A DNA stretch of 49,649 nucleotides from Oscillospiraceae bacterium. GTDB lineage: Bacteria; Bacillota; Clostridia; Oscillospirales; Ruminococcaceae. The notes below the pieces were generated by a model. That model worked only from the letters and a program-made list of their open reading frames with translations, did not search any database and was not told the origin of the DNA. Position 1 is the stretch's first letter. Each line of letters begins with the position of its first letter. Below, piece after piece: positions 34,287 through 43,521 of this stretch. The position numbers were made by a program, and so were the translations under genes. The stretch covers positions 1 to 49,649 of the forward strand of contig JAAVIE010000113.1 in the NCBI GenBank assembly GCA_014799325.1, written 5' to 3'.

Positions 34287-37200
34287 ATGAAAAAGAAAAT
34301 AATCTCTTCTATTGTTGCTTTAGCACTGATAATCACTTCGGTGGCAGTTCTGCCGTCGCTGTATGAAAATACGAGTAATGACGAAGGAGACTCTCCTGAT
34401 GTATTACCCGACGCTGTGGCGGTCAACGAGGAAAATTTCCCCGACGAAAGCTTCCGCAAATATGTTTTGGAGCTGGAAAAAGCGGCTTCGGGCGAAAATG
34501 CGGGCAACGGCATATTTGAAAAAGAGGAGCTGGAACAAGTCACCTCTGTTATGGCAAGCTCTCTTGAAATCCGGGATCTGAAAGGTATAGAGTATTTTAC
34601 ATATCTTGAAACTCTCAACATCAGCGGCAACGGTGTAAAGGAGCTTGACCTTTCCCACTTTAAAAATCTTAAAGAGCTTATCTGCTCCGATAACAAGCTT
34701 GAAAGCTTGGATCTCAGCAAGCTGACGGCTCTTGAAAAGATAGACTGCGCAAGCAACAGCATTGAAGAGCTTAATGTAAATGACAATCCGCTTCTTACCG
34801 AGCTTTGCGTTTCAAACAACCCTGTCACTGCGCTCGATATACGCAACAATCCCGTTTTACAGAGGTTTGAAGCGTCAAACACAAAGCTTACTTCTCTCAA
34901 TATCGAAAACCATACTCCATTTGATTCGAGTGACGCGGAAAACATAAAGGAATTTGACTTCTTCGAGCTTAACAACAGCTCTTACCCTGTTTTCAGCTGC
35001 AACGCAGAGATCTATGATTTCGATCTGACAACGCTGCCCGGCAGCTTCAATATTGAAAAGGCTTCTGAGTGGAACGGTGCTGAGCTTGTTGATACGACGC
35101 TCAAGGGCGTTAAGCTGGGCGACACTATGACCTATTCTTATGATGTAGGCTGCGGAATAAGCGTTCAATTTACCATTACCTTTGAAGAGGGGCATGATCC
35201 CGTAAAGGTGGAGGACAGAACCGAGATATGCTCCACAGCCGAGGAATTGTGGCAGTGTGCAGACTGCGGAAAGTTCTTCTCCGACGAGGAAGGAACAGTA
35301 TCTGCAGAGGCTGTTATCGGTCACAGCTACAACGAGGGTGTTGTGGAAAAAGAAGCTACCTGCACCGAAGAAGGTGTTTTGCTTAAGTCTTGTACAATCT
35401 GCGGTCACGAACACAGAGAAGCTATTGAAATGCTTCCCCACACTATCGGCGACAGTTACGAATTTGACGATTATCAGCACTGGAAGGTTTGTCAGGTCTG
35501 CGGAACTGAGGTCGACAGAGAAGATCACAGCTTTGACGGCGACGATAACATTTGCCTTGTATGCGGCGAGACTATCCAGCGTCATCATCACAATATCGTC
35601 TTTGTTGAGGAAAAGGCTCCTACCTGTAATGAGGAAGGTGTTAAGGAACATTACTACTGCGCAGACTGTGAAACATATTTTACAGACAGTGAAGGAACTG
35701 AAGAGACCGCCTACGCCGATCTGATAATTGAAAAGCTTGATCATCAATATGAAACAAGATTTGATGAAAACGAGCATTGGCAGGAATGTACTCTTTGCGG
35801 AGACAAGAAAGACATTCAAAGCCATAATTTTGAAGAAGAAAGAACAGAACCTACATGCTGCGCTGACGGCGCTGTAAACAATATCTGCCACGACTGCGGA
35901 TATACCGTTGAGGTGGAAGTTCTCCCCGCAACAGGCGACCATATCTTTGCCGAGGAATATTCCACCGATGAAAATAGTCACTGGTTCAGCTGCACCAACG
36001 AGGAATGCACCGAAAGATACCAGCTTGCAGAACACAGCTTCACAAAGCTTGAGATCGCGAAGAACCCCACTTGCTCCGAGGAAGGCGTTCTGAATCATAT
36101 CTGCGAGGTGTGCGGATATACAAAATCAGAACCCATTCCCGTTTCGGACACTCATAATTTCAACGATTCCTATGTTCAGATCGATGAACATACACATGCC
36201 AAGGCTTGCGCTGACTGCGGCGAGATCATAGGAGAGGAAGAACCTCACGAGTTTGATCAAAGCAACGTAAAGGATCTTGGTGAACAGCATGCTTCCATAT
36301 GCAGCCTTTGCGGAGCCTCCGATCAGCCCAATGAACACGTTTACGAGATCGAGATCGTCAAGGCAAGCTGCTTTGAGGGCGCAAAGCTGGTTTACACATG
36401 TAAGATCTGCGGACACAGCTATTTTGAGGAAACAAGCGAGCCTACAGGCGAACATATTTTCTCAGAGGAATACACTCTTGACGGAGACAAACACGTTCAC
36501 AGCTGTATGACTGAGGGCTGTACCGCAGTTGACAAGCACACTCCCGAAAAATGCAGCTTCACAGGCTCTAAGGAAACTGAACCCTCCGGCAGCGAACCTG
36601 TTGATAACGAACCTGACGTTACCGAGCCTGACGAAACGGTTCCCGAAATAACAGTTTCTGACTCGCCCGTAGACGACAGCATCAAGGTTGATGTTGATGT
36701 AACTATTTCCCAGGTTTCAACTATAGATATAGTATGGCCCACAAGCGTAAGCGTTGTATTTAATCCTTACAGATTAAAGATAAAAAATGATAGTGAAGAA
36801 CATTCGCTGTCCTTTGCGGGCGGCAGCGACGAAAGCTCCGAAACCGTTTTATCCGGAGAAATGGCGTTTATCAACAGAGGCGACTGCGAGGTCAAGGTCA
36901 CGGTAACAGGCTCCGTAACTGCCGTTACCTCAACGGATCTTTACGGAAATCCCCTGTTAGACAACAAGGGCAACCCCATAACCAAGCCAAGCGAGAACAT
37001 TGTATTTGTTGACAAGCCCCTTGATCTCAATAATCCCAACAATGCTGACGTCACTCCCAGGAAAAATGCGATCCTGCTTTATCTTGAAGCTACTTCGCAG
37101 TTTGACTCCACAGGAACCTACGGTATTTATTCGGGAATCTATGACAGGGATAACGCAAACCAGATGCTTCTCGGAAGTAAGGAAATCTCCAAAAACCTCT

Positions 37201-37484
37201 TCAACATTGCTCCCAATGACGGAGAAAAGGACGGCGTAACAAACGTCAAGATCTGCGGCGATATGGAAACTGACCCTGACGTAAGCTGGAGCGAGGTTTC
37301 AAGAACAGATCAGATCAAGATCATACTTGTCTTTGAGGCTGCGCCCCTTGAAGATGCCGATAACGGATCTTCTGAAGAAACCGTTGGAGATTCCGCAAAC
37401 CAACCTGTTGAAGAAACGGTTGGGGAAAACACCGAAAATCCAGCCGAAAGCGCATCGGAGACCACAGAACAGTTGGTTCCCTGA
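34287..37484 (+). CDS. Secreted LRR and Cys-repeat surface protein
   Basis: A 1065-residue extracellular protein. Signal peptide at residues 1-25 (KKKIISSIVALALIITSVAV). Residues 90-215 hold about five leucine-rich repeats of the LNISGNGVKELDLS type. Residues 300-760 are a long series of Cys-rich repeats with CxxC pairs in the forms CTICGHE, CQVCGTE, CEVCGYT, CADCGEI and CKICGHS, many preceded by CxEEGV. An acidic Pro/Glu/Ser linker (767-800) and a beta domain with DIVWPTSVSVVFNPYRL near 815 follow, then an acidic tail ending TTEQLVP. No LPxTG, no C-terminal helix: attachment is unclear. The ligand is unknown. Confidence 0.85.
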   Translation: MKKKIISSIVALALIITSVAVLPSLYENTSNDEGDSPDVLPDAVAVNEENFPDESFRKYVLELEKAASGENAGNGIFEKEELEQVTSVMASSLEIRDLKGIEYFTYLETLNISGNGVKELDLSHFKNLKELICSDNKLESLDLSKLTALEKIDCASNSIEELNVNDNPLLTELCVSNNPVTALDIRNNPVLQRFEASNTKLTSLNIENHTPFDSSDAENIKEFDFFELNNSSYPVFSCNAEIYDFDLTTLPGSFNIEKASEWNGAELVDTTLKGVKLGDTMTYSYDVGCGISVQFTITFEEGHDPVKVEDRTEICSTAEELWQCADCGKFFSDEEGTVSAEAVIGHSYNEGVVEKEATCTEEGVLLKSCTICGHEHREAIEMLPHTIGDSYEFDDYQHWKVCQVCGTEVDREDHSFDGDDNICLVCGETIQRHHHNIVFVEEKAPTCNEEGVKEHYYCADCETYFTDSEGTEETAYADLIIEKLDHQYETRFDENEHWQECTLCGDKKDIQSHNFEEERTEPTCCADGAVNNICHDCGYTVEVEVLPATGDHIFAEEYSTDENSHWFSCTNEECTERYQLAEHSFTKLEIAKNPTCSEEGVLNHICEVCGYTKSEPIPVSDTHNFNDSYVQIDEHTHAKACADCGEIIGEEEPHEFDQSNVKDLGEQHASICSLCGASDQPNEHVYEIEIVKASCFEGAKLVYTCKICGHSYFEETSEPTGEHIFSEEYTLDGDKHVHSCMTEGCTAVDKHTPEKCSFTGSKETEPSGSEPVDNEPDVTEPDETVPEITVSDSPVDDSIKVDVDVTISQVSTIDIVWPTSVSVVFNPYRLKIKNDSEEHSLSFAGGSDESSETVLSGEMAFINRGDCEVKVTVTGSVTAVTSTDLYGNPLLDNKGNPITKPSENIVFVDKPLDLNNPNNADVTPRKNAILLYLEATSQFDSTGTYGIYSGIYDRDNANQMLLGSKEISKNLFNIAPNDGEKDGVTNVKICGDMETDPDVSWSEVSRTDQIKIILVFEAAPLEDADNGSSEETVGDSANQPVEETVGENTENPAESASETTEQLVP

Positions 37485-37503
37485 TGTATTTTTCCAAAAA
37501 CTA

Positions 37504-37532
37504 TTGACAAAAAGGTCATAAAGTATTAAAAT
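37504..37532 (+). promoter_or_regulatory. Promoter of the shikimate operon
   Basis: TTGACA (37504-37509), 17 bases, TAAAAT (37527-37532). It points into the aromatic leader peptide 46 bases on. Confidence 0.8.
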
Positions 37533-37577
37533 TAAGTTAATATTTAAGAATTATTTAAAAAAATGACGGAGTAAAAT

Positions 37578-37670
37578 ATGTTAGATCTTTTCACTGAAAG
37601 CTTTATATTTTGGTTTAGCGGCTTGTGCTTTTACTTTAGCAGCAAGTATTATTTCCGTACCAAAAATTAA
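37578..37670 (+). CDS. Aromatic-rich leader peptide of the shikimate operon
   Basis: A 30-codon frame with a good ribosome site (GGAG at 37568-37571, six bases before ATG). Eleven of 30 residues are aromatic: 7 Phe, 3 Tyr, 1 Trp, packed as FIFWF, CFYF and YYF. It has no other features of a protein. It ends at TAA 37668-37670, and an antiterminator arm and a terminator follow before the DAHP synthase gene. By analogy with pheA and trp attenuators, ribosomes pausing at Phe/Tyr codons when these amino acids are scarce would allow read-through. It is too short for routine gene calling; the call rests on composition and position. Confidence 0.75.
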   Translation: MLDLFTESFIFWFSGLCFYFSSKYYFRTKN

Positions 37671-37674
37671 AGCT

Positions 37675-37750
37675 GTGGTGTAGTAGATTTGAGAAAGCAT
37701 ATTTGCTTTTGTACAAATTCAGCCTGCATCGCTTGATGCGGGCTTTTTTA
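37675..37750 (+). promoter_or_regulatory. Transcription attenuator (antiterminator and terminator)
   Basis: Terminator: AGCCTGCATC (37721-37730), loop GCTT, GATGCGGGCT (37735-37744; 10 bp, one G-U) and a T run to 37750. Antiterminator: GTGGTGTAG (37675-37683), just after the leader stop, can pair with CTGCATCGC (37724-37732) over nine positions (three G-U), which takes away the terminator's left arm. A small hairpin AAAGCA/TGCTTT sits between. A five-base pairing of leader-end GCAGC (37639-37643) with GCTGT (37672-37676) could block the antiterminator. Confidence 0.7.
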
Positions 37751-37808
37751 TTGAAACCCACAATAATGAAAAAAGCAAAGAAAAACAAAATGAAAGGAAC
37801 ACAAAAAA

Positions 37809-38828
37809 ATGATCATTATTCTGAAAAAGGACGCACCCAAAGATGAGGTGGAAAGGCTCTGGCATGATATTGAGGCGCAAAATATCAAGATCAACGAGGT
37901 TGTTGGTTCTCACACCACCATTTTAGGCTTGATAGGCGATACCCACAAGGTCGATACCGAAGCTATTGAGGCAAGGGAGATAGTTGAATCCGTTCAGCGT
38001 GTTCAGGAGCCATATAAGGAGGTCAACCGCAAATTCCACCCCGAAGATACAGTAGTTTCTGTGGGAAACGCTAAAATCGGTGACGGAAATGTAGCTGTTA
38101 TTGCAGGTCCCTGCTCCATTGAAACGGAAGAGCAAATCATAGACACCTGTATGCAGGTCAAGGCTGCAGGCGCAAATCTGCTGAGAGGCGGCGCATTTAA
38201 GCCCAGGACCTCCCCCTACTCTTTCCAGGGCTTGGGCGATGAGGGCTTGAAGCTGTTTCTGAAGGCAAAGAAAGCCACAGGACTGCCTATTGTTACCGAG
38301 CTTATGTCACTTGCTCACATTGACCTTTTTAATGATGTAGATATAATCCAAGTCGGCGCAAGAAATATGCAGAACTTTGAGATGCTTAAGGAGCTTGGAA
38401 AATGCAGCAAGCCCATTTTGCTGAAAAGAGGACTTGCCAACACTATCGAGGAGCTGCTGATGTCTGCGGAATATATCATTGCAGGCGGAAACACCAACAT
38501 TATCCTTTGCGAAAGAGGAATACGCACCTTTGAGACACAGACCAGAAACACTCTTGACCTTTCCGCTATCCCTGTTATAAAGAGCTTGAGCCACCTGCCC
38601 GTTGTGGTAGACCCAAGCCACGCTACGGGAAAATACGAGCTTGTGGAACCACTTTCCATGGCGGCAGTTGCGGCAGGAGCGGACGGTCTTATCATAGAGG
38701 TACACAACAATCCTCAGAATGCGCTTTGTGACGGCGCTCAGTCTCTCACTCCCAAGCGTTTTGAGAAGTGTATGGAAAAGTGCGCGCAAATCGGCAATGT
38801 ATTGGGTAAAAAGGTTGGTACTTTATAA
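37809..38828 (+). CDS. aroF: 3-deoxy-7-phosphoheptulonate (DAHP) synthase, type I beta
   Basis: First step of the shikimate pathway: phosphoenolpyruvate plus erythrose-4-phosphate to DAHP. 339 residues. Residues 1-70 are the ferredoxin-like N-terminal domain of the beta type (MIIILKKDAPKDEVERLW), often used for feedback control. The barrel has AGPCSIE, RGGAFKPRTSPYSFQG, QVGARNMQNF, LLKRG and VVDPSHATGKYE. It follows the leader attenuator by 58 bases and its stop overlaps the aroB start by one base. Confidence 0.96.
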   Translation: MIIILKKDAPKDEVERLWHDIEAQNIKINEVVGSHTTILGLIGDTHKVDTEAIEAREIVESVQRVQEPYKEVNRKFHPEDTVVSVGNAKIGDGNVAVIAGPCSIETEEQIIDTCMQVKAAGANLLRGGAFKPRTSPYSFQGLGDEGLKLFLKAKKATGLPIVTELMSLAHIDLFNDVDIIQVGARNMQNFEMLKELGKCSKPILLKRGLANTIEELLMSAEYIIAGGNTNIILCERGIRTFETQTRNTLDLSAIPVIKSLSHLPVVVDPSHATGKYELVEPLSMAAVAAGADGLIIEVHNNPQNALCDGAQSLTPKRFEKCMEKCAQIGNVLGKKVGTL

Positions 38829-39883
38829 TGAAAAAAATTACCGTAAAGGCAAATTCGGCAAGCTATGATATATTGATAGAAAGCGGACTTCTGAACAAGT
38901 GCGGTCAGCTGATCTCCCAAGTGGAAAAGTCAAGAAAATGCGTTATTGTCACCGATGACACAGTAAACGGACTGTACGGAGATATTACCGTAAAGAGCCT
39001 GGAAGAAAGCGGCTTTACTGTTTCGAGATTTGTAGTTCCACACGGAGAAAATTCCAAATCCCATGAGCAGCTTATTGCCATTTATAATTTTCTTTGTGAA
39101 AAGGACATAACCAGGACTGACTTTCTAATAGCCTTAGGCGGAGGAGTTGTGGGAGATCTGACGGGCTTTTGTGCCGCTACATATTTAAGAGGTATAGACT
39201 ATGTTCAGATACCCACCACCCTTTTGGCGCAAGTAGACAGCTCGGTGGGAGGAAAGACCGCTGTAAATATAGATGAGGGAAAGAATCTTGTGGGAGCGTT
39301 CAAACAGCCTGCTCTTGTTATAACCGACACCGACACCCTTTCCACCCTTTCGGAGGACATTTACGCCGAGGGTATGGGCGAAGTGATAAAGTACGGTATG
39401 ATACGGTCAAAGGCGCTGTTTGAAAAGCTGTCAGAGGGCAATTCCCACAAATATATTGATGAGATAATCGCCGAATGTGTGGGCATAAAGCGCGATGTGG
39501 TGCAGAACGACGAGTTTGACACAGGAGAAAGAATGATACTGAATTTCGGTCACACCTTTGCCCACGCTATTGAGAAACACGCAGGCTTTGGCAATGTTCC
39601 GCACGGAAAGGCTGTGGCTATGGGAATGTACATGATAACTTTGGCTGCGGAAAAACAGGGCAAGGTCAAAAAAGGCACGGCTGAACAGCTCAAAAGCTGT
39701 CTTGAAGCCAATTCACTGCCTTGCTCCTACGAGATTTCCCATGAGGAGCTGTACAAGCTTTCTGTGGGAGATAAAAAGAGGACTTCAAATAAAATCAGAG
39801 TTATTATCTGCGCCGAGCCGGGAGCTTGCGAGATAGTTTCACTGACACTTGACGAATATCACGATCTTATACAAACCATTTGA
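38828..39883 (+). CDS. aroB: 3-dehydroquinate synthase
   Basis: Turns DAHP into 3-dehydroquinate with NAD and a metal. 351 residues. NAD-binding GGGVVGDLTGFCAATYLRG near residue 98, QIPTTLLAQVDSSVGGKTAVN, the metal-binding region with EVIKYGMI, and GHTFAHAIE are all standard. It overlaps the DAHP synthase gene by one base. A 206-base hairpin-rich gap follows before aroA. Confidence 0.96.
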   Translation: MKKITVKANSASYDILIESGLLNKCGQLISQVEKSRKCVIVTDDTVNGLYGDITVKSLEESGFTVSRFVVPHGENSKSHEQLIAIYNFLCEKDITRTDFLIALGGGVVGDLTGFCAATYLRGIDYVQIPTTLLAQVDSSVGGKTAVNIDEGKNLVGAFKQPALVITDTDTLSTLSEDIYAEGMGEVIKYGMIRSKALFEKLSEGNSHKYIDEIIAECVGIKRDVVQNDEFDTGERMILNFGHTFAHAIEKHAGFGNVPHGKAVAMGMYMITLAAEKQGKVKKGTAEQLKSCLEANSLPCSYEISHEELYKLSVGDKKRTSNKIRVIICAEPGACEIVSLTLDEYHDLIQTI

Positions 39884-40089: not shown

Positions 40090-41307
40090 ATGGGAACCAC
40101 TGTTACCATAACCCCCTCCAAGCTCAGCGGAAAAATCTCTGTTCCGCCCTCTAAAAGCATCTCCCACCGAGCCTTGATCTGCGCCGCTCTCGCTAAAGGA
40201 AGATCGGAGATAAAAGGACTTTTAGACTGTGCCGACACAAGGGCTACTATTGGGATATTGAAAGCTTTTGGGGCGAAGATCACCCAAAACAACAACGTTA
40301 CTGTTGTTGAAGGAATAGACGACCCCGTCAAAGAGGCTGTGGCTGACTGCTGTGAAAGCGGTTCTACTTTGAGGTTTTTGATCCCCGTAGCCGCCGCTTT
40401 GGGCTGCCGCACGAAGTTTAGGGGGAAGGGAAAGCTGCCTGAAAGACCGATCACACCGTATTTTACAGAGCTTACCAAAAACGGAATTACCTTTGAGAGC
40501 GAAAAAATGCCCTATATCATAAACGGTAAGCTCAGGTCGGGAGAATACAGCATTAGGGGCGATATTTCCTCCCAGTTTATAAGCGGTCTGCTTTTCGCCT
40601 TGCCTTTGTTGGAGGGCGACAGTAAAATAATAATCACTTCCCCGCTCCAGTCCAAGCCCTATGTGGATATTACCGCCGCGGAGCTGAAAAGGTTCGGAGT
40701 TACCGTCATTGAGACCGACTACGGATATTTTGTAAAGGGCGGTCAAAGCTATAGACCCTCTAATACCGCTATTGAAGCGGATATGTCACAGGCGGCGTTT
40801 TTTGCGGTGGCTTCCGCTTTAGGTTCGGATATAGAAATAGAGGGGCTTAATCTCAACAGCTTGCAGGGCGATCGAGAGATCCTTGATATAATTGATCAAT
40901 CGCAGGGAAACGGCTTTGACGTAAGCGCAAAGCAGATCCCCGATCTGGTGCCAATTCTGACAGTCTTAGCCGCTCTTTCAAAAGGTACGTCGCATATCAC
41001 CGACTGCGGCAGGCTACGAATAAAGGAATGTGACAGGCTGGCTGCGATCACCGCGGAGCTGAATAAGCTTGGGGCAAAGGTGAAGGAATACCCCGACAGT
41101 TTGGAGATAGAAGGCGTGGAGATGCTTAAAGGCGGCGTATGCGACTGCCACAACGATCACCGCATACCTATGGCGCTGGCGATAGCTTCCACCTGCTGCA
41201 CTGAGCCCGTTACTCTTATAGGAACGGAGTGTATCGGCAAATCCTATCCCTCATTTTTTGAAGATTTTATTTCCTTGGGAGGACAAATAAATGTCATCAA
41301 CAATTAA
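40090..41307 (+). CDS. aroA: 5-enolpyruvylshikimate-3-phosphate synthase
   Basis: Joins shikimate-3-phosphate and phosphoenolpyruvate. 405 residues. LSGKISVPPSKSISHRALI at the start is the substrate-binding block; CCESGSTLRFLIPVAAALG, GKGKLPERPI, SSQFISGLL and CHNDHRIPMALAIAS are standard. It overlaps aroC by 17 bases. Shikimate kinase and dehydrogenase genes are not in the window. Confidence 0.96.
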   Translation: MGTTVTITPSKLSGKISVPPSKSISHRALICAALAKGRSEIKGLLDCADTRATIGILKAFGAKITQNNNVTVVEGIDDPVKEAVADCCESGSTLRFLIPVAAALGCRTKFRGKGKLPERPITPYFTELTKNGITFESEKMPYIINGKLRSGEYSIRGDISSQFISGLLFALPLLEGDSKIIITSPLQSKPYVDITAAELKRFGVTVIETDYGYFVKGGQSYRPSNTAIEADMSQAAFFAVASALGSDIEIEGLNLNSLQGDREILDIIDQSQGNGFDVSAKQIPDLVPILTVLAALSKGTSHITDCGRLRIKECDRLAAITAELNKLGAKVKEYPDSLEIEGVEMLKGGVCDCHNDHRIPMALAIASTCCTEPVTLIGTECIGKSYPSFFEDFISLGGQINVINN

Positions 41308-42367
41308 TTTAGGAAATCTTTCGGTATCGGTTTTCGGAGAATCACACGGCTCCGCTATTGGCGTTGTCATCGACAATCTGCCTGCAGGAAAAAGGCTTTC
41401 CATTGACAGGATAAACGAGTTTATGTCAAGACGCGCCCCCAAAAAGGATGGCACAAGCACTTTCAGAAACGAAAAGGATCTGCCCGAAATAATAAGCGGA
41501 TTCTACAAAGGAAAAACCACGGGAGAAGCCCTGTGCGCCGTTATCAAAAACAGCGATCAGCATTCCTCGGATTATGAGAGCATCGCTTCCCTCGCCCGCC
41601 CCGGTCATGCCGATTTTACCGGCTATTCCAGGTATAATAAAAGCAACGATATGAGGGGCGGAGGACATTTTTCGGGCAGGCTCACTGCGCCATTGGTGTT
41701 TGCGGGAGCGGTTTGCGAACAGTTTCTTCTTAGCCTGGGCATAACCACTGCCGCTCATATTTATTCTATCGGGCAGGAAAAGGACTGTGCTTTTGATCCT
41801 GTAAATATTTCGGAGGAGCTGATGCACGAGATCAAAACCCGCTATCTTCCCCTGATAGATACTTCCGCTGACGAAAAAATGCGGGCGGTCATTGACAATG
41901 CAAGAGAAAACAAGGATTCCGTCGGCGGAATAGTTGAGTGCGCCGCTGTGGGGATCCCCGTTGGAACAGGCTCACCGATCTTTGACGGATTGGAAAACAG
42001 GATATCCCAGGTGGTATTTGCAGTGCCTGCTGTCAAGGGGATCGAGTTCGGCGCAGGCTTTGAAGCCGCTTCCCTCTTTGGCAGTCAGAATAATGACGAG
42101 TTTTATATGGACGGCGACCGGGTCATGACGCGGACAAACAATGCAGGAGGAATTTTGGGCGGTATCTCTGACGGAATGCCATTGATTTTCCGCACAGCAA
42201 TAAAGCCCACTCCCTCTATCGCAAAGGCGCAGAATACGGTAGACTTTGTTAAAAAAGAGGACGCGGTCATTGAAATAAAGGGCAGGCACGACCCCTGTAT
42301 CGTGCCGAGATCAGTACCTTGTATTGAAGCGGCGCTGAATATTGCTCTTATGTCATATTTTTGCTAA
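41291..42367 (+). CDS. aroC: Chorismate synthase
   Basis: Makes chorismate using reduced FMN. 358 residues with the usual blocks: VFGESHGSAIGVVIDNLPAG at the start, RPGHADFTGYSRYNKSNDMRGGG with SGRLTAP near residue 105, GSPIFDGLENRISQVVFAVPA near 225, GGISDGMPL and KGRHDPCIVPRSVPCIEAAL at the end. It is 20-30 residues shorter than typical by loops only. A DUF4364 gene follows directly. Confidence 0.96.
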   Translation: MSSTINLGNLSVSVFGESHGSAIGVVIDNLPAGKRLSIDRINEFMSRRAPKKDGTSTFRNEKDLPEIISGFYKGKTTGEALCAVIKNSDQHSSDYESIASLARPGHADFTGYSRYNKSNDMRGGGHFSGRLTAPLVFAGAVCEQFLLSLGITTAAHIYSIGQEKDCAFDPVNISEELMHEIKTRYLPLIDTSADEKMRAVIDNARENKDSVGGIVECAAVGIPVGTGSPIFDGLENRISQVVFAVPAVKGIEFGAGFEAASLFGSQNNDEFYMDGDRVMTRTNNAGGILGGISDGMPLIFRTAIKPTPSIAKAQNTVDFVKKEDAVIEIKGRHDPCIVPRSVPCIEAALNIALMSYFC

Positions 42368-42388
42368 ATGTTAAATAAGGAAATAGCT

Positions 42389-42943
42389 ATGTACGAATCT
42401 CCCAAAATTACAATAGACGAAAAGCTCACAATACAGATATATCTGTGCTTTATTTTAGAGCAGTTAGGCGAGCTTACCGAGGACCAGCTAAGCGATATTG
42501 TCACCGAGATAGACGCGGTAAGCGGCTTGGAATTTTTTGAAGCACTTAGCGTTTCGGTGGAAAAAGAGCTTATCGGCGTTAAAGAAGAAAAGAACGTCAA
42601 AAGGCTTTCTTTGCTTCCCCAAGGTCTCACCATGTCAAAAGAGTTTTTTCACCGTATTCCCCTTTCTATCAGGGAAAAAACTATCGAGTATGGACAGTAT
42701 GTTTTAAAAATGGCTGACCTGGAGCGCTCCATAATTTGCCGTATTGAGCGGAATGGAGTGGGTGAGCCTTGCTATCTCAGGGTGAGGTTTCTTAATGAGA
42801 TCAACGGAGATGAGCTGATGAATCTTAAGATATACGCCCCCGATTATGAGCAGGCAAAGCTTATGAGGGAGCGGTTTTATGAGAAGCCTTCGGATATTGT
42901 TACTAAGATCATGAAGATGTTTATTAAGGATAGCTATTTATAA
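42389..42943 (+). CDS. DUF4364 family protein
   Basis: A 184-residue protein with the DUF4364 layout: a winged-helix-like start (DEKLTIQIYLCFILEQLGEL), the block LLPQGLTMSKEFFHRIPLSI followed by RE, and a C-terminal beta part (CYLRVRFLNEINGDELMNLK). Function is unknown; such proteins are common in Clostridia and often lie near housekeeping genes. I start at ATG 42389, 7 bases after AAGGA, rather than 42368. It is the last gene of the aro run and precedes a toxin-antitoxin promoter. Confidence 0.75.
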   Translation: MYESPKITIDEKLTIQIYLCFILEQLGELTEDQLSDIVTEIDAVSGLEFFEALSVSVEKELIGVKEEKNVKRLSLLPQGLTMSKEFFHRIPLSIREKTIEYGQYVLKMADLERSIICRIERNGVGEPCYLRVRFLNEINGDELMNLKIYAPDYEQAKLMRERFYEKPSDIVTKIMKMFIKDSYL

Positions 42944-43000: not shown

Positions 43001-43261
43001 ATGGCACAAGTGAATTTCCGTATTGAAGATGACGTTAAACTTAATGCTGAGTTGGCTCTTAAAGAAATGGGACTATCTATGTCAACCGCTATCAATATGT
43101 TTCTTGTAAAGGTAGGCAGAGAAAAACGCATACCCTTTGAAGTAAATGTAGACCCATTCTATAATCCCGAGCATATAGCAGAGCTTGAAAAGCGCTTTGC
43201 AGATGCAAAAGCGGGACGCAATATGCACGAGCATGAATTGATAGAGGTAAGTGACGAATGA
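43001..43261 (+). CDS. RelB/DinJ-type antitoxin
   Basis: An 86-residue antitoxin. The ribbon-helix-helix domain is at residues 1-45 (AQVNFRIEDDVKLNAELALK and STAINMFLVKVGRE), and the C-terminal part that wraps the toxin is charged (HIAELEKRFADAKAG). AAAGGAG precedes the ATG. The stop overlaps the toxin start as ATGA, the normal coupling. It should neutralise the toxin and repress its own promoter. Confidence 0.88.
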   Translation: MAQVNFRIEDDVKLNAELALKEMGLSMSTAINMFLVKVGREKRIPFEVNVDPFYNPEHIAELEKRFADAKAGRNMHEHELIEVSDE

Positions 43262-43521
43262 AAAAAATCTGGCACGATCAAGCATGGGAAGATTACTTGT
43301 ATTGGCAAACACATGACAAAAAAACATTGAAGAAAATCAACATTCTTTTGAAAGGCATTGACCGAAACGGATATAATTGTATAGGAAAGCCGGAGCCCCT
43401 GAAAGGAAACCTTTCAGGGGCATGGAGCGTCCGTATTGATGAGAAAAATCGAATCGTATTCAGAATTTGCGTAGAAACGATAGAAATACTTGAATGCGGC
43501 TCTCATTACGGCGATAAATAA
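43258..43521 (+). CDS. YoeB-type mRNA interferase toxin
   Basis: An 87-residue YoeB/Txe toxin, the ribosome-dependent endoribonuclease partner of RelB-type antitoxins. It has KKIWHDQAWEDYLYWQTHDK at the start, the conserved KPEPLKGNLSGAWSVRIDEK with the catalytic RNase-like residues, and ends ILECGSHYGDK with the terminal His-Tyr. Full-length and apparently intact. It lies between the aro operon and the leftward ComEC-like genes. Confidence 0.9.
   Translation: MKKIWHDQAWEDYLYWQTHDKKTLKKINILLKGIDRNGYNCIGKPEPLKGNLSGAWSVRIDEKNRIVFRICVETIEILECGSHYGDK

Follow-up and report, generated by a model that had tools for sequence, protein, structure and literature searches.

Computational analysis of the window, the whole 49,649-nucleotide stretch of Oscillospiraceae DNA considered here, uncovered an element at positions 37504-37749 that combines a promoter, a 30-codon leader frame rich in aromatic codons, a terminator of 10 bp and the antiterminator strand that competes with it, all ahead of a DAHP synthase-aroB-aroA-aroC operon. 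This element is best explained as a ribosome-mediated transcription attenuator that senses charged tRNA-Phe and tRNA-Tyr, a reading to which we assign a probability of roughly 0.87 on evidence that is computational throughout. The same arrangement is found upstream of DAHP synthase genes in many other genera and families.

The frame proposed in the initial annotation, with its ribosome site and 11 aromatic codons, is present as described (Table 1): it spans 37578-37667, is closed by TAA at 37668-37670 and encodes MLDLFTESFIFWFSGLCFYFSSKYYFRTKN. The Shine-Dalgarno GGAG is common to most close relatives in alignment A2 (described below). The 10-bp terminator proposed at the same time was also confirmed (AGCCTGCATC-GCTT-GATGCGGGCT, 37721-37744, then the T run), and Pfam profiles identify the genes behind it as those that make the amino acids in question, beginning with a DAHP synthase (DAHP_synth_1 and DAHP_snth_FXD) as first gene of the operon. 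As in an attenuator, an open reading frame with a ribosome site carries codons for the end products of the pathway, and a terminator lies between it and the first gene. Within the frame, a hairpin with an outer stem (37601-37614 with 37659-37672) and an inner stem (37621-37629 with 37638-37647) encloses most of the aromatic codons. Beyond the stop codon, GTGGTGTAG at 37675-37683 can form nine pairs, three of them G-U, with CTGCATCGC at 37724-37732, which lies in the 5′ arm and loop of the terminator.

Table 1. Features of the attenuator and the operon behind it (positions in the window).
Feature	Coordinates	Strand	Description or basis
Sigma-A-type promoter TTGACA-17-TAAAAT	37504..37532	+	11/12 consensus bases
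Shine-Dalgarno GGAG	37568..37571	+	6 bases 5′ of leader ATG
Leader peptide ORF	37578..37670	+	30 codons and TAA; 7 Phe, 3 Tyr, 1 Trp
Leader-internal hairpin	37601..37672	+	RNAalifold; pair counts; peptide-preserving shuffles
Antiterminator strand (strand 2)	37675..37683	+	directly 3′ of leader stop codon
Spacer hairpin, in antiterminator loop	37686..37719	+	predicted fold
Intrinsic terminator	37721..37749	+	stem 37721-37730/37735-37744, loop GCTT, T run
DAHP synthase, aroF type, ferredoxin-like regulatory domain	37809..38828	+	Pfam PF00793 and PF18152
aroB, 3-dehydroquinate synthase	38828..39883	+	Pfam PF01761/PF24621
aroA, EPSP synthase	40090..41307	+	Pfam PF00275
aroC, chorismate synthase	41291..42367	+	Pfam PF01264

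A leucine-rich-repeat protein gene (34287-37484) adjoins the element on its upstream side; since this gene ends at 37484, the element heads its own transcript, for which a start near 37539 would be expected. At the other end, a DUF4364 protein gene (42368-42943) lies directly 3′ of the chorismate synthase gene and may be a member of the operon. It is followed at 43001-43521 by two small overlapping genes that we take, by eye, to be look-alikes of a RelB/DinJ-type antitoxin and a YoeB-type toxin.

In the mechanism that we infer, the leader would be translated, stalling of the ribosome would be the signal, phenylalanine and tyrosine would be the sensed amino acids, and transcription would actually terminate at the hairpin. 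RNA polymerase would start near 37539 and make the leader RNA, with a ribosome following. With an ample supply of charged tRNA-Phe and tRNA-Tyr, the ribosome would reach the stop codon at 37668 and cover 37675-37683, the terminator at 37721-37744 would form, and transcription would stop near 37750. Under a shortage of Phe or Tyr, it would stall on an aromatic codon and leave 37675-37683 to pair with 37724-37732, which would block the terminator and allow transcription of DAHP synthase-aroB-aroA-aroC. The leader-internal hairpin is probably a pause hairpin, and in many relatives it probably protects the antiterminator strand when the ribosome is absent.

Statistics on the window alone support the leader and its fold. 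No open reading frame with a ribosome site and an equal density of aromatic codons arose in 200 dinucleotide shuffles (p=0.005), the fold of the RNA from 37520 to 37808 beats all 200 shuffles (z -3.07), and the leader fold beats peptide-preserving shuffles (z -2.41 and -2.96). The nine-pair antiterminator of the window, taken by itself, is not significant against shuffles (p=0.087; p=0.197 in a second test); its support comes from relatives.

Relatives were sampled at the level of genus, family and order. DAHP synthase was matched in 28 of 60 sampled genomes of the genus, with 80% identity or more in 11 (the window's own genome included). A sequence-only model, R1, was built from 13 aligned elements (alignment A2) and is blind to the downstream gene; it matches 12 of 71 genus genomes, once in each, and these are the 11 loci just mentioned plus one with a 91%-identical DAHP synthase. 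Where genus members have a more divergent DAHP synthase, a leader was not significant or detectable (18 of 18 loci). Searches of 396 family genomes with R1 returned 54 matches at E<=0.01, distributed over 52 genomes and 35 genera. At E<=0.0024, 43 of 44 matches (a tally that includes three genus loci) lie upstream of a DAHP synthase gene on the same strand, and the last lies too close to the end of its contig. Outside the genus, each of the 27 best matches is followed by the gene on the same strand, about 1.2-1.3 kb from the element in two cases (L149 and L151). Another 24 matches are weaker; 14 of these fall at E<=0.0024, 13 of them with DAHP synthase, and between E 0.004 and 0.0084 one in ten has it. 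At L168 the leader is present and the contig ends before the downstream gene. The conservation of the leader frame and its aromatic codons that was proposed as a check on the initial annotation is thus found both in the genus and in many genera and families beyond it.

In order to avoid choosing loci by their leader, an order-wide sample was fetched by DAHP synthase alone. This search matched 193 of 297 order genomes at E<=1e-60, covering 98 of 145 genera; 126 loci (26 + 100) were taken, and 124 of them proved distinct and usable. A leader was called where a ribosome site precedes a frame of 12-60 codons, with at least five aromatic codons in a 10-codon window, no more than 420 bases upstream; duplicates and loci with fewer than 250 bases upstream were excluded, which left 124 of 126 new, 99 of 109 old and 38 of 51 family loci. 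By this rule 90 of the 124 loci carry a leader, as compared with 1 of 124 on the opposite strand, and 34 of the 124 have no detectable leader. Named records that carry a leader at DAHP synthase include Candidatus Soleaferrea massiliensis AP7 (L055), Acetivibrio sp. MSJd-27 (L110) and Emergencia timonensis (L065). In the older set of 99 usable loci the rule finds 40 leaders against one on the opposite strand, and an earlier set of 100 loci gave 36 against three.

The other parts of the element travel with the leader. A terminator lies 3′ of 87 of the 90 order-sample leaders, with 7.0 expected from shuffles, and a terminator hairpin follows all 39 leaders of the family and genus. A promoter scoring at least 10/12 stands upstream of 38 of these 39 (mean 11.1, as compared with 8.15 in mononucleotide shuffles). 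Where a gene has been inserted before DAHP synthase (L004, L006 and L166), the element still comes first in the transcript. In L004 and L006 (the same loci as L034 and L040) the insertion is a SAM-dependent methyltransferase gene, which, lying 3′ of the attenuator, would share its control. The gene between attenuator and DAHP synthase in L166 (1374-2387, minus strand) encodes a leucine-rich-repeat protein.

RNAalifold, run unprompted on A2, returned the hairpin inside the leader frame together with the terminator, and the leader-internal hairpin, which the initial annotation does not mention, is the best supported structure of the element. In these two structures 95.2% of alignment cells are paired (35-53% with sliding partners), and eight pairs have changed on both sides, as compared with 2.4 in shuffles (reached in 0 of 500), counts that favour the structure because it was taken from the same alignment. 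All 39 leaders fold less stably once synonymous codons are permuted (mean z -2.6; -2.8 under codon resampling), with z below -1.64 in 33 of 39 under each of the two procedures. This loss of folding under peptide-preserving shuffles indicates that selection acts on the RNA and not only on the peptide. Two peptide columns occupied by Ser, Gly, Cys or Arg have codons that share the bases xGC, in 37 of 39 sequences each, and xGC forms the inner stem. Of 92 departures across nine aromatic columns, 66 lead to another aromatic residue, and departures at aromatic column 19 lead solely to non-aromatic residues; as the sequences are related, these column counts are not independent events.

The initial annotation had counted one Trp codon among the 11 aromatic codons of the frame. 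On comparison of the sequences, this codon looks like a component of an RNA stem and not like a codon that is sensed. TGG has become CGG in one relative (L033/L129), and the partner bases have changed as well, so that pairing is kept. Trp was set aside as a sensed amino acid because this relative lost the codon and kept the pair.

The conserved positions also bear on whether the peptide itself could act. In a TnaC-like arrest, the nascent leader peptide would stall the ribosome on a free aromatic compound and not on an empty A site. The length of the leader and an FYFS-x-G/K-aromatic pattern that recurs in leaders across genera would fit such an arrest; on the other hand, the non-aromatic positions are conserved as bases of the inner stem (xGC) and not as residues, Phe and Tyr replace one another freely, and the peptide sequence is quite another one in the leaders of other families. 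We therefore consider peptide arrest improbable, though it is the strongest of the competing explanations.

Attenuation by stalling on aromatic codons further predicts that the position of the ribosome decides which fold forms. For 39 leaders, the RNA 3′ of the ribosome was folded up to the point at which the 3′ arm of the terminator is about to appear. The mean probability that the 5′ arm is sequestered was 0.73 for a ribosome placed on the aromatic codons, 0.31 for one at the stop codon and 0.40 with no ribosome, and it was 0.53 with a shuffled spacer (native vs shuffled, Wilcoxon p 7.5e-10). The value on aromatic codons exceeds that at the stop codon in 37 of 39 leaders (L131 and L149 do not show this) and that of ribosome-free RNA in 37 of 39. 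The two folds are mutually exclusive. With footprints of 6, 9, 12 and 15 bases, counted as the bases covered past the first base of the A-site codon, the excess over the stop codon is seen in 34, 36, 37 and 37 of the 39. The order sample behaves in the same manner, with sequestration of 0.75 on aromatic codons, 0.43 at the stop codon, 0.53 without a ribosome and 0.54 with a shuffled spacer; aromatic codons exceed the stop codon in 76 of 86 leaders and ribosome-free RNA in 72 of 86, and native exceeds shuffled spacers in 76 of 86. In the window itself, sequestration with the ribosome at the stop codon is 0.73 for footprints of 6 and 9, 0.42 for 12 and 0.26 for 15, so that the drop appears only with a footprint of at least 12 bases; the ribosome-free RNA gives 0.56, and termination there is not clear-cut. 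An antiterminator that is masked by a ribosome at the stop codon and free when the ribosome stalls on regulatory codons is supported for the leaders in aggregate and is not significant for the window alone.

The specific pairing of 37675-37683 with 37724-37732 put forward in the initial annotation is present and has energetic support across relatives, but the covariation sought for it did not appear: double changes are not in excess on the 13-sequence A2 alignment, where 323 of 500 shuffles reach the observed count. On A2, 81.6% of antiterminator cells are paired, as compared with 77.3 in shuffles (1 of 500) and 29-46% when slid. Direct duplex energies are more favourable than the average of shuffles in 12 of the 13 close relatives and reach p<=0.05 in four (L003, L006, L007 and L041), and one relative (L005) gives no antiterminator signal (p=0.505). 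In L012 and L041 the terminators differ and the antiterminator strand has changed to match (p=0.094 and p=0.005, respectively). Over the 39 leaders, single-locus shuffle tests reach p<=0.05 in 11. Taken with the conserved frame and aromatic codons, folding across relatives supports the translation-coupled attenuation on Phe- and Tyr-tRNA that had been proposed for this locus.

Leader codons also vary with the gene that accompanies DAHP synthase. In the order sample the median of Tyr/(Phe+Tyr) is 0.44 before DAHP synthase-tyrA (n=61) and 0.20 before DAHP synthase-aroB (n=23; Mann-Whitney p 6.1e-5), where tyrA partners were called with the L164 protein, a prephenate dehydrogenase by Pfam, as query. 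Independent contrasts over 143 loci give r 0.21 (p=0.019-0.020), with 10 parsimony changes of partner, in a set that had no hand exclusions and includes model-retrieved family loci biased to Phe-rich leaders. An earlier phylogeny-corrected test on 58 loci, from which L026 and L051 had been dropped by hand as doubtful leaders, gave p=0.058. The association of Tyr-rich leaders (such as that of L076) with tyrA operons and of Phe-rich leaders, like the window's, with aroB is thus suggestive, not settled. Whether a single attenuator chassis runs through the order, with its sensor codons re-tuned to Tyr before tyrA and to Phe before aroB, is in our judgement an even bet; if true, leader codon content could be read as a trace of the end product that is limiting for the pathway. 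The genome of the window contains a prephenate dehydrogenase, and the assembly (~90% complete) has no match to the prephenate dehydratase family (PF00800).

A hydrophobic, aromatic peptide for which pN/pS is lower in frame 0 (0.45) than in the other two frames might instead be a functional small membrane protein, followed by an ordinary gene-end terminator. Such a protein would not account for the selection on RNA folding, over and above the peptide, in all 39 leaders, for complementarity between the 5′ arm of the terminator and the strand at the leader stop codon, or for aromatic content that varies with the operon partner, and the peptide is not conserved between families. This makes a membrane protein very unlikely.

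T-boxes are found in related settings. In one locus of the order sample (L302:466-717, plus strand), a T-box occupies the place that the leader has elsewhere, about 85 bases before DAHP synthase, and a second lies nearby on the opposite strand (L302:1-249, minus strand). This is the only positive among the 31 of 34 leaderless order loci that were checked, and T-boxes were found at none of 17 genus DAHP synthase loci and none of 20 loci from other named genomes. The window's own genome has seven T-box matches, five over the cut-off. By eye, the open reading frames next to them resemble leuA-type enzymes, an acetyltransferase, ThrRS, a TrpB-like protein, CysE-CysRS and a DinB-like protein.

These T-boxes lend some substance to the idea that a riboswitch, a T-box or a protein-binding antiterminator merely overlaps a chance frame at the window locus. 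Rfam, however, returned no gathering-level match across the window, neither the T-box riboswitch (RF00230) nor any other riboswitch; sub-threshold matches fall far below the cut-off, and the aromatic codons, frame and ribosome site are conserved. We regard this alternative as less likely still than a membrane protein. At a permissive threshold, 37400-37900 gave nine weak matches far below the cut-off, which were taken as chance. Although Phe and Tyr codons are frequent by composition in an AT-rich region, a chance frame in front of a constitutive terminator is scarcely credible given the opposite-strand controls (1/124 and 3/100), the dinucleotide shuffles and the blind model search.

A probable leader-peptide attenuator stands at the entry to the aromatic pathway in most sampled loci of the order (90 of 124), and in the window's case in a genome that also has T-boxes. 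The hundreds of natural variants offer a means to learn what governs the choice of sensor codons and how frequently a leader and a T-box take each other's place, as in L302. By inference, the attenuator may also govern the supply of aromatic metabolites in anaerobic communities.

In the enteric pheA/pheST and trp leaders, a peptide rich in the regulated amino acid sets an antiterminator against a terminator. The element described here differs in that it precedes the first gene of the common pathway and has a mixed Phe/Tyr leader. It also has no sequence match to the Rfam Trp_leader model (RF00513; 13.9 bits, gathering cut-off 41). The textbook division gives leader peptides to Proteobacteria and T-boxes to Firmicutes. 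That division is echoed in PMC2965389 and PMC9413887, and PMC2965389 presents regular leader peptides in Firmicutes as a noticeable finding. T-box riboswitches of aromatic genes in Firmicutes, as outlined in PMC2494555, read tRNA charging and decide termination; a T-box binds tRNA directly and needs no leader translation, and none was found in the window. Ribosome-mediated His and Leu leader attenuators are described for Gram-positive Firmicutes in PMC2965389, PMC9413887 and PMC5794164, but these concern other amino acids and genes and, as presented there, single genera or few orders. The open-access full texts searched contain no aromatic leader peptide before a clostridial DAHP synthase gene, and an earlier description is possible. 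The closest likeness is uORFC-13-1 of Acholeplasma, characterized in PMC8632094 as a candidate uORF with promoter elements and a terminator, found exclusively upstream of aroF, with 24 representatives from Acholeplasma and environmental sequences only and "at least one phenylalanine" codon. Both place a Phe-codon uORF and a terminator before a DAHP synthase gene; compared by description only, the window element differs in its many Phe and Tyr codons, its occurrence in other families and its leader-internal hairpin. The kind of attenuator is thus known, its principle being familiar from E. coli, and the family reported here is a new and widespread member of it.
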